NCBI GenBank assembly: GCA_001899065.1
Contig: MKUZ01000031.1
Location: 207,687 to 271,686 of the forward strand
Length of the DNA: 64,000 nt
Source: Devosia sp. 66-22
GTDB taxonomy: Bacteria > Pseudomonadota > Alphaproteobacteria > Rhizobiales > Devosiaceae
Reading direction: 5' to 3'
Shown here: piece by piece, positions 3,453 through 5,959 of the stretch
Numbering within the stretch: the stretch's first letter is position 1
Layout of the letters: every line of letters begins with the position of its first letter
The notes under the pieces: model-generated
Seen by the model: only the letters and a program-made list of their open reading frames with translations
What the model was told of the DNA's origin: nothing
Databases searched by the model: none
Translations under genes and position numbers: made by a program

Positions 3453-4493
3453 TTACGCCGCCTTGCGCTCGACCAGCTTGCGCTCGACGAGCGTCTCGAG
3501 GATCTGCACGGTGTTGAGCGCGGCGCCCTTGCGGAGGTTGTCCGAGACGACCCACATCGACAGGCCGTTCTCGACCGTCACGTCCTCGCGGATGCGCGAG
3601 ACATAGGTGTCGTATTCGCCCACCGCCTCGATCGGCGTGGCGTAGCCGCCGGACTCGCGCTTGTCGACGACCGAGATGCCCGGCGCGTCGCGCAGGATAT
3701 CGCGCGCTTCATCGGGCGTGATTTCCTTCTCGAACTCGATGTTGACCGCCTCGGAGTGACCGACGAACACGGGCACGCGCACGCAGGTGGCGCTGAGCTT
3801 GATCTTGGGATCGAGGATCTTCTTGGTCTCGGCCACCATCTTCCACTCTTCCTTGGTCGAGCCGTCTTCCATGAAGACGTCGATGTGCGGAATGACGTTG
3901 AAGGCGATCTGCTTGGTGAACTTCCTGGGGGTGGGGGAATCGTTGACGAAGATGCCCTTGGTCTGCGTCCAGAGCTCGTCCACACCCTCCTTGCCGGCGC
4001 CGGAGACCGACTGGTAGGTCGCCACCACGACGCGCTTGATGGTGGCCGCGTCGTGCAGCGGCTTCAGCGCGACGACGAGCTGGGCGGTGGAGCAGTTGGG
4101 ATTGGCGATGATGTTCTTGCGGTCGTTCTGCGCCATGTAGGCGTCGAGCACGTGGGCGTTGACCTCGGGCACCACGAGCGGCACGTCGGCGTGGTAGCGC
4201 CAGAAGGACGAATTATCGACCACGATGCAGCCAGTGGCGCCGATCCTCTCGCCATACTCCTTGGCGATGGAGGAGCCGGCCGACATCAGGGCGAAGTCGA
4301 CGCCGGAGAAGTCGAAGTGCTCGAGGTTCTGCACCTTGAGGCGCTTGTCGCCGAAGCTGATCTCCTGCCCGACCGAGCGGGCGGAGGCGAGAGCGATGAC
4401 CTCGGAGGCCGGAAACTTGCGCTCGGCGAGGATGTTGAGCATTTCGCGGCCCACATTGCCCGTGGCCCCGACGACAGCGACGCGATAACCCAT
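3453..4493 (-). CDS. asd: aspartate-semialdehyde dehydrogenase
   Basis: Reduces aspartyl phosphate to aspartate semialdehyde with NADPH, the branch point to lysine/diaminopimelate, threonine and methionine. The 346-residue form starts at the ATG followed by GYRVAVVGATGNVG, the dinucleotide-binding motif; an in-frame ATG at 4514 is a less likely start. The catalytic cysteine is Cys134 in NPNCSTAQ. The segment VFVGHSEAVN also fits the family. AAGGGA lies about nine bases upstream of the chosen start. A 37-codon Lys/Thr-rich frame and hairpins occupy the leader, pointing to amino-acid-dependent control. A DMT exporter gene follows. Confidence 0.97.
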   Translation of the reverse strand: MGYRVAVVGATGNVGREMLNILAERKFPASEVIALASARSVGQEISFGDKRLKVQNLEHFDFSGVDFALMSAGSSIAKEYGERIGATGCIVVDNSSFWRYHADVPLVVPEVNAHVLDAYMAQNDRKNIIANPNCSTAQLVVALKPLHDAATIKRVVVATYQSVSGAGKEGVDELWTQTKGIFVNDSPTPRKFTKQIAFNVIPHIDVFMEDGSTKEEWKMVAETKKILDPKIKLSATCVRVPVFVGHSEAVNIEFEKEITPDEARDILRDAPGISVVDKRESGGYATPIEAVGEYDTYVSRIREDVTVENGLSMWVVSDNLRKGAALNTVQILETLVERKLVERKAA

Positions 4494-4584
4494 GGAACTG
4501 ATCCCTTGACCCATCCCCCGCGCCGGCGACCGGCGGCGTAACCTCTTCGGCCTCTCCCCGGCGGGGAGCTGCCCGGGGAAAAGC
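4494..4584 (-). promoter_or_regulatory. asd leader with mutually exclusive hairpins
   Basis: Between the small leader frame and asd, the transcript can form CTCCCC-GCC-GGGGAG (4554-4568). Alternatively, the CCCCGG just after the leader stop can pair with CCGGGG, which shares bases with that hairpin, so the two structures compete. A third short stem GCCGG-TCG-CCGGC lies closer to asd. No run of U residues follows, so a classical intrinsic terminator is not evident; Rho-dependent or translational control would be alternatives. The hairpins are seen; their regulatory function is inferred. Confidence 0.4.
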
Positions 4585-4698
4585 TTAGCGGGTGGTTTTG
4601 GTGGTTTTGGTCTTGAGGCCGAGCGGCAGCACCGGGACGCGCCGGGGACCGAAGGCCTCCAGCTCGATGATCTCGATGTCCATCATGTCTTCGCGCAT
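4585..4698 (-). CDS. 37-residue Lys/Thr-rich putative leader peptide of asd
   Basis: A complete small reading frame with ATG at 4698 and TAA at 4585-4587. GAGG lies eight bases before the start and a promoter-like sequence about 25 bases further up. The peptide ends KTKTTKTTR: five Thr and three Lys codons among the last nine, two of the Lys codons being AAA, which is uncommon in this GC-rich window. Asd makes the common precursor of Thr and Lys, so this resembles an attenuator peptide such as ThrL. The run is encoded by a 9-base tandem repeat (ACCAAAACC), so chance low complexity or an unrelated small protein remain possible. Confidence 0.55.
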   Translation of the reverse strand: MREDMMDIEIIELEAFGPRRVPVLPLGLKTKTTKTTR

Positions 4699-4723
4699 CG
4701 CGAATACCTCAAGCAATGAGCGG

Positions 4724-4751
4724 CTTTTACGCCGAAATGGCAAAGAGTCAA
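4724..4751 (-). promoter_or_regulatory. promoter of the asd leader
   Basis: On the minus strand a TTGACT -35 (complement of 4746-4751) is followed after 16 bases by TAAAAG (complement of 4724-4729). Transcription would begin about 20 bases before the small leader frame. The -35 lies in the perfect palindrome GTCAATTGAC at 4747-4756. Confidence 0.5.
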
Positions 4752-4780
4752 TTGACGGCGATTCGTGCTAGAGGCCGCTG

Positions 4781-5959
4781 ATGCGCAAATATGACGTCCT
4801 TGTCCTTGGAGCCGGTGCGGCCGGCATGATGGCCGCCATCGAGGCCGGCAAACGTGGGCGTTCGGTGCTGGTGATCGACCATGCCAAGGCGCCGGGCGAG
4901 AAGATCCGCATCTCGGGCGGCGGCCGCTGCAATTTCACCAATGTGAACACCCGGCCTGACCGCTTCCTGTCGCAGAACCCCAAATTCGCGGTGTCGGCGC
5001 TGAGCCGCTACGCGCCGCAGAAGTTCATCGACCTGGTCAAATCCTATCGCATCGCCTTCCATGAGAAGACGCTGGGCCAATTGTTCTGCGACGGTTCGTC
5101 GGTCCAGATCGTCAATCTGCTGACCAGCGAGATGGGCAAGGCCGGGGCGGAACTCGAGCTTGGTGTGGCGATCGAGACGGTGGAGAGGGCCGAGGGGGGC
5201 TTTCGGGTGCAGCTCTCGTCGGGCCCGGTGGAGACGGCTTCGCTGGTGGTTGCGACGGGCGGCAAGTCCATCCCCAAGATGGGGGCGACCAATTTCGGCT
5301 ATCGGCTGGCCGAGCAGTTCGGGCTCGCCTTCACCGAGACGCGGCCGGCGCTGGTGCCGCTCACCTTCGAGCCGCGCATTCTCGAGCGGCTGGGGCCGCT
5401 TTCGGGCATCGCCGTGGACTCGACGGTGAGCGCCAATGGCAAGACTTTCCGCGAGGCGATGCTGTTTACCCATCGCGGTCTCAGCGGTCCGTCGATCCTC
5501 CAGATCTCGAGCTACTGGCGGGAGGGCGATGCCATCGTGGTCAACCTGCTGCCCGACATGGATGTGCCGGGCATGCTGAAGGACGCGCGCGCCGCAACGC
5601 CCAAGCTGGCGCTGCAGACCGTGCTGTCGGCGCATTTGCCCAAGCGGCTGGCGCAGATGCTGGCCGAGGACATCGGCATCGCATCGATGATGGGCGACAT
5701 CTCGGACAAGAAGATCGCCGGCGTGGCCGAGAGCCTCTCGCGCTGGACGCTGAAGCCGACCGGCTCGGAGGGCTATCGCACCGCCGAGGTGACGCTTGGC
5801 GGCGTGGACACCAAGGGGCTCAACTCGACCACGATGGAGGCGCGCGGTGTCCCCGGGCTCTATGTCGTCGGCGAAGTCGTCGACGTCACCGGCTGGCTTG
5901 GCGGCTACAATTTCCAGTGGGCCTGGGCGAGCGGCTGGGCGGCGGGGCAGGCGGCCTAA
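4781..5959 (+). CDS. HI0933/YhiN-family flavoprotein (NAD(P)/FAD oxidoreductase)
   Basis: A 392-residue flavoprotein of the HI0933-like (BaiN/YhiN) family. The N-terminal FAD-binding motif GAGAAGMMAA is at about residues 10-19, followed by the family signature EKIRISGGGRCNFTN. The C-terminal FAD motif GLYVVGEVVDVTGWLGGYN is present, with AWASGW near the end. Its in vivo substrate is not known for most members. The gene is divergent from the asd leader and convergent with the next gene, with which it shares three bases of stop codon (5956-5959). The family is certain, the reaction is not. Confidence 0.9.
   Translation: MRKYDVLVLGAGAAGMMAAIEAGKRGRSVLVIDHAKAPGEKIRISGGGRCNFTNVNTRPDRFLSQNPKFAVSALSRYAPQKFIDLVKSYRIAFHEKTLGQLFCDGSSVQIVNLLTSEMGKAGAELELGVAIETVERAEGGFRVQLSSGPVETASLVVATGGKSIPKMGATNFGYRLAEQFGLAFTETRPALVPLTFEPRILERLGPLSGIAVDSTVSANGKTFREAMLFTHRGLSGPSILQISSYWREGDAIVVNLLPDMDVPGMLKDARAATPKLALQTVLSAHLPKRLAQMLAEDIGIASMMGDISDKKIAGVAESLSRWTLKPTGSEGYRTAEVTLGGVDTKGLNSTTMEARGVPGLYVVGEVVDVTGWLGGYNFQWAWASGWAAGQAA

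Follow-up and report, generated by a model that had tools for sequence, protein, structure and literature searches.

The asd gene of Devosia sp. 66-22 is very probably preceded by a genuine leader peptide gene that senses lysine and threonine, and sequence comparison places predicted leaders of this kind in many families of one order. The locus lies within the window, meaning the whole 64,000-nucleotide stretch of contig MKUZ01000031.1 that was analyzed. It is likely that ribosomes translating the leader sense the charging of both tRNA-Lys and tRNA-Thr, and that the signal would be passed to asd through the output scheme proposed below.

Organization and distribution of the asd leader

The first-pass annotation of the window had described a 37-codon frame ending in KTKTTKTTR, two of whose lysine codons are the uncommon AAA, at a short distance from asd and equipped with a promoter-like sequence and a Shine-Dalgarno site. 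These elements are readily found in the sequence (Table 1). Five threonines and three lysines occupy the last nine residues of the leader, two of the three lysine codons are AAA, and the stop codon ends at 4585, leaving 91 nt before the asd ATG. The identification of the downstream gene as asd is confirmed by matches to NCBIfam PRK14874 and TIGR01296, and its best named relatives are those of a Devosia sp. (93% identity) and Devosia insulae (91%). The leader start codon and its Shine-Dalgarno-like site were read in the window copy only.

Table 1. Features of the leader-asd region; positions are counted from the first letter of the window.
Feature	Position	Strand	Basis and remarks
Probable promoter of the leader-asd transcript	TTGACT 4751-4746, TAAAAG 4729-4724	minus	16 nt spacing; conservation
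Leader Shine-Dalgarno-like GAGG	4710-4707	minus	8 nt 5' of leader ATG
Leader peptide gene (predicted)	4698-4585	minus	37 codons + TAA; translation MREDMMDIEIIELEAFGPRRVPVLPLGLKTKTTKTTR, then stop
Putative Lys/Thr control codons AAG ACC AAA ACC ACC AAA ACC ACC	4591..4614	minus	Sequence and codon counts
Segment 2 (UCCCCG)	4574..4579	minus	Reachable by ribosome on leader stop; partner is segment 3
Segment A (CUCCCCGC)	4561..4568	minus	Partner is segment 3 or segment 5; helix scan and ribosome-mask folds
Segment 3 (CGGGGAG)	4554..4560	minus	Partner is segment 2 or segment A
Hairpin between segments 3 and 5	4518..4536	minus	No U-tract 3' of hairpin
Segment 5 (GCGGGGG)	4515..4521	minus	Long-range partner of segment A; 5' of asd ribosome-binding site
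asd Shine-Dalgarno-like AAGGGA	4502..4507	minus	Sequence
asd, aspartate-semialdehyde dehydrogenase	3453..4493, ATG at 4493	minus	NCBIfam and Pfam matches

A strict sigma-70 consensus scan of the window found no promoter, and the promoter claim therefore rests on conservation: of the 59 loci from the window's family, 56 have TTGAC 145-220 nt 5' of the leader stop and 50 fit the pattern TTGAC-N16-18-TANNW. From this promoter element we infer that the 5' UTR of asd includes the leader frame. The divergent neighbor (4781-5959, plus strand) is an HI0933-like (TIGR00275) FAD-binding flavoprotein gene. Its start and the leader TTGACT are 30 nt apart, so that two divergent promoters would be packed into a short intergenic stretch. 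Elsewhere in the window, the plus-strand frame at 82-846 is presumably the C-terminal part of a LeuC, and the one at 1907-2557 is presumably a beta-type carbonic anhydrase, both judged by eye.

To count leaders among relatives, loci identical over the last 200 nt were first removed; a locus was then scored as a carrier if a frame stopping 40-180 nt before asd had Lys or Thr at 5 or more of its final 10 positions. The most Lys/Thr-rich tail of each locus was taken as its leader, a choice that favors detection and was applied alike to shuffled sequences. Loci in which no asd start was found (L089, L103, L174, L182, L220, L226 and L245) were excluded. Of 60 distinct loci from the window's family, taken as Devosiaceae, 59 carry a Lys/Thr-tailed frame (76 of 77 with duplicates counted); the exception is L225 of genome G021, where the leader may have been lost or the asd start misassigned. 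An order-wide sample contains the leader in 22 of 61 loci, which represent 12 of 39 families, and 27 of these 39 are without it at this strict cut-off. When the cut-off is relaxed to 4, a score that shuffles reach in 2.4% of cases, 30 of the 61 order loci and two Methylobacterium loci qualify. Among named loci the leader is present in 40 of 75, with Mesorhizobium, Brucella, Bartonella, Rhizobium and Phyllobacterium among the carriers. At the strict cut-off it was not found in the named loci of Hyphomicrobium, Xanthobacter and Blastochloris, which we take to belong to the window's order, or in those of Sphingomonas, Novosphingobium, Erythrobacter and Parvibaculum. A class-wide sample yielded 1 of 27 loci, a set in which one locus (L237) belongs to the window's order by taxonomy label. 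The sole case above the cut-off in this sample, L230 (family f51; same class, other order by label), reads TTTKKTKTVA-stop 109 nt before asd.

When the 99 window open reading frames that have an upstream region are compared, a set that includes asd itself and many frames that are not genes, asd ranks first with 8 Lys/Thr of the last 10 residues, the runner-up having 5. A search of the window's genome with a model of the leader, in which 150 of 2297 first-look candidates were scored, gave a single match at E < 9, at asd, with the next at E 9.6. The pattern KTTKTx-stop, which the window copy does not fit owing to one extra codon before its stop, has five matches in 13 genomes, all directly before asd; its backwards control has one, in G027. 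A Rhizobiaceae pattern matched in 1 of 121 genomes, being too strict and uninformative on prevalence.

Competing pairings and the form of the output

The first-pass annotation had placed mutually exclusive hairpins in the gap between leader and asd, and had suggested aligning the asd upstream region of related genomes. We aligned the stretch from leader tail to asd start in 35 Rhizobiaceae-type loci (alignment A1) and in 59 from the window's family (A2); these sets, and a further set of 36 loci, were drawn from loci with at least 5 Lys/Thr in the last 15 residues. Conservation extends to the frame, to its Lys/Thr run and to competing pairings that covary. When helices are enumerated exhaustively and ranked by double changes, both alignments have the same three at the top: segment 2 with segment 3 (2:3), segment A with segment 3 (A:3), and segment A with segment 5 (A:5). 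The combination of 2:3 and A:5 has 94.2% paired cells and 8 double-change cells in A1, and 98.0% and 9 in A2, where slid versions reach at most 72.3% and 71.6% paired cells, respectively. Its covariation score is reached by 0 of 500 shuffles in either alignment, and further pair types in A1 are no more numerous than in shuffles (242/500). By these comparisons, 2:3 and A:5 are well supported in both clades and A:3 well in A1 but weakly in A2, where its number of pairs with a double change is matched by 301 of 500 shuffles and its covariation score by 9 of 500, and where several slid versions outscore the actual register.

Segments A and 5 match better within than between genomes, both in 31 loci at about one per family (p 0.0005; loci with at most 75 nt from stop to ATG dropped) and in 36 loci (p 0.0012; L056, L078, L090 and L205 omitted). 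Within A1, where these segments hardly vary, matched pairs are no better than mismatched ones (p 0.50), and in A2 the CGGG of segment 5 is invariant. RNAalifold predicts a variant of 2:3 for A1 and a weak consensus without A:5 for A2, and the 94-nt fold of the window is not unusual (z -1.43). A Bartonella locus (L083) retains the GC-rich segments 3' of the leader stop, and its long-range helix can reach into the asd Shine-Dalgarno sequence (CCTGCTCTCTCC with GGAGAGAGACAGG). Known Rfam RNA families, including the lysine riboswitch, were ruled out as the identity of the region: a search of window positions 4300-4900 against Rfam 15 at E up to 10 gave no match at gathering score and one chance sub-threshold match, and the 20 loci searched among 110 gave no match other than a tRNA.

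The positions of the segments suggest how the leader may work. Segment 2 ends at a narrow distance after the leader stop (8-10 nt in A1, 9-14 nt in A2; SD below 1), and segment A begins on average 17.3 and 17.6 nt past it in A1 and A2, respectively. When the stop codon occupies the ribosomal A site, about 10 nt beyond it lie under the ribosome, which would thus cover segment 2 and leave segment A exposed. This stop-to-segment distance, kept in two clades of differing sequence, is the best hint of mechanism. When lysine and threonine are plentiful, the ribosome would reach the leader stop and cover segment 2, so that segment A would be free for segment 3 or segment 5; the long-range A:5 helix would then close the region beside the asd ribosome-binding site and reduce asd translation. 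Under shortage of lysine or threonine, the ribosome would stall in the Lys/Thr run, segment 2 would remain free and take segment 3, and with 2:3 formed A:5 would be disfavored and asd expressed.

Folding simulations with a ribosome mask bear on these steps. For nascent RNA in the window's family, 2:3 is favored in 56 of 59 loci during an early stall and A:3 in 50 of 59 with the ribosome at the stop. A stall at the last threonine resembles the stop (2:3 above 0.5 in 9 of 59 loci, A:3 in 40 of 59), and only an early stall would therefore discriminate. In full-length RNA, the loci with A:5 above 0.5 increase from early stall to stop, from 3 to 16 of 59 in the window's family and from 5 to 21 of 35 in A1, part of the shift arising simply because masking takes segment 2 out of pairing. 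In A1 nascent RNA at an early stall, the aligned 2:3 register exceeds 0.5 in 1 of 35 loci; summed over the region, 2:3 amounts to 5.7-6.4 pairs at the early stall and falls from 5.7 to 0.4 by the stop. In the mixed-family set A:5 barely shifts (13 versus 12 of 37, stall versus stop). The mixed-family and region-sum folds omit L056, L090, L205 and loci with less than 85 nt from stop to ATG (L223, L224 and L192). The region-sum bounds of segment 3 partly miss the window's family, for which the register-based counts serve. All folds are free of pseudoknots, and 2:3 combined with A:5 would be one.

Which step of asd expression is controlled can be approached through terminators, scored as a hairpin with T at 5 or more of the 8 positions that follow it. 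There is no such site at the window locus, in the 59 leaders of the window's family or in 41 mixed-family leaders, and the earlier caution that no U-tract follows the hairpins still stands. Of the 35 Rhizobiaceae-type leaders, 16 have a terminator-like hairpin (14 Mesorhizobium, 1 Aminobacter and 1 other), a pattern that would fit gain or retention of a terminator in a single branch. In L051 and the 15 others, this T-tailed hairpin (GCGGGTTTTCT) is located between segments 3 and 5. From these counts, intrinsic termination is not the general output, and the lack of intrinsic terminators in the window's family and in the mixed families points to translation initiation as the probable one. Outside Mesorhizobium-type leaders translation initiation is the most likely output; here we infer the polarity of each step. 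For the window's own clade, we consider the chances of control through translation initiation about even. One folding test gives this no support, since the change in asd Shine-Dalgarno accessibility (stall minus stop, equilibrium folding, L056, L090 and L205 omitted) has the wrong sign in all three groups, at -0.046, -0.061 and -0.066.

The strongest competitor is classical transcription attenuation, in which the same sensor would cause premature termination at an intrinsic terminator, at a U-poor hairpin or through Rho. The anatomy and geometry of the leader, which fit discrimination between stall and stop, would serve this output too, and the T-tailed hairpins of the Rhizobiaceae-type leaders speak for it there. 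However, the intrinsic form finds no terminator in the other two sets of leaders, and segment 5, near the asd start, would be without a role if termination occurred at an earlier hairpin. We regard this output as possible but doubtful. The first-pass annotation had likened the locus to classical attenuation, and the likeness extends to the codon run and the competing pairings; the transcription terminator of the classical scheme is absent in the window's clade. Returning to translation initiation, the proposal in its most specific form is an attenuator without a terminator, shared by many families, in which one peptide may read both lysine and threonine, partly through the rare AAA codon and one tRNA-Lys isoacceptor, and may act on asd translation initiation through a possibly pseudoknotted long-range helix. 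We advance this full combination tentatively, with confidence a little short of even.

Conservation of the peptide tail

By eye, the body of the peptide differs even between congeners while its tail is kept, in forms such as KTTKTP-stop, KTTKTA-stop, KTTTKTV-stop, TKTTTTT-stop and others. For 12 of 18 congeneric genomes other than the window's own, the Lys/Thr run is where the DNA match begins. Lysine codons of the tail are AAA in 125 of 133 cases in the window's family, versus 38 of 533 in 32 long open reading frames of the window (more than 250 codons, GC3 of at least 0.72). Two tRNA-Lys genes, with anticodons UUU and CUU, are present in the window's genome, and in standard decoding AAA is read by the UUU species, on which the AAA codons would thus depend. 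The AAA preference fits a sensor, and it equally fits a need to avoid G in this stretch. Threonine codons are similarly uniform in the window's family (ACC in 214 of 236). The tail is nearly fixed there as nucleotides, and an additional constraint at the RNA level is therefore possible in this family.

This uniformity is what favors a second alternative, that the tail is conserved as an RNA or DNA element, nearly G-free and A/C-rich, that is unstructured or protein-binding, and does not act as control codons. Several observations weigh against it: 1) third positions change across clades with Lys and Thr kept, and spacings change; 2) the frame terminates at a nearly constant spacing to segment 2; and 3) SEP5, a comparable frame of Sinorhizobium meliloti, is translated, according to the available part of its report (PMC10117765). 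Within A1, threonine codons at alignment columns 16-18 vary at the third position (ACC/ACG), as does the valine codon before the stop (GTC/GTG), and one threonine codon has a first-position G in 7 of 35 loci. We judge a purely nucleotide-level role unlikely.

By analogy to SEP5, as far as its report was available (PMC10117765), the leader frame is probably translated, which would also be expected if it encoded a functional small protein that lies before asd by happenstance. This was rejected as highly improbable, given that the body diverges, that the peptide has no Pfam or NCBIfam match and that the last residues alone are kept. A chance, low-complexity origin from a 9-base tandem repeat, a caution raised in the first-pass annotation and correct in that the window copy contains the repeat, is answered and has a negligible probability, because a score of 5 or more Lys/Thr comes up in 0.33% of cases when 221 loci are dinucleotide-shuffled, and because the run recurs in nearly all loci of the window's family and in 12 of 39 sampled families with different codons and spacings.

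Relation to known leaders

The enzyme encoded by asd makes the common precursor of lysine, threonine and methionine. If the proposal is correct, a leader reading two amino acids would explain control of this branch at loci without a lysine riboswitch match, in an order whose members range from symbionts and associates of plants or animals to soil bacteria. It would, moreover, be an attenuator that works with no intrinsic terminator.

Similar leaders are those of E. coli thrL, hisL and pheA, in which control codons for the pathway product are found near the leader stop and RNA pairings compete. They belong to other genes, each ends in an intrinsic terminator, and thrL senses threonine and isoleucine. 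The asd leader shares with them the position of its putative control codons and the competing pairings; unlike them, the leaders of the window's family are without an intrinsic terminator.

In the open-access literature, the one directly relevant report, available in part, is that of S. meliloti SEP5, a small translated frame in the 5' UTR of an "aspartate dehydrogenase" gene, proposed in 2023 as such a leader and reported as conserved only in Sinorhizobium (PMC10117765). This gene is probably asd, and the earlier statement that no example on asd had been described in this group was thus nearly right, the exception being the leader suggested for S. meliloti. Compared by description, SEP5 and the window's leader are alike in having a cluster of threonine and lysine codons near the 3' end of the frame and in lying in the 5' UTR of asd. 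They differ in that the available part of the SEP5 report describes no RNA structure, whereas the asd leader described here extends to many families and has defined predicted pairings (PMC10117765). Homology probably failed to reveal the wider family because the tail alone is conserved; if the present reading is correct, a remark on one species would become a general regulatory element.

Two further systems offer partial parallels, insofar as the available parts of their reports describe them. The actinobacterial LEU element before leuA consists of a control-codon peptide with the other elements of an attenuator missing, and resembles the asd leader in a possible pseudoknot and in pairing that involves the downstream Shine-Dalgarno region; it differs in gene, amino acid and phylum, and in that its codon run is reported to pair with the Shine-Dalgarno box (PMC1262725). 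The cysS uORF motif uORFC-8-2 of Rhodobacterales is, like the asd leader, an alphaproteobacterial candidate for ribosome-mediated attenuation, but with cysteine codons, cysS as its gene and an intrinsic terminator (PMC8632094). Set beside these systems, the asd leader is not wholly new: classical attenuation is right in kind, and the leader departs from the classical scheme by having no terminator here.
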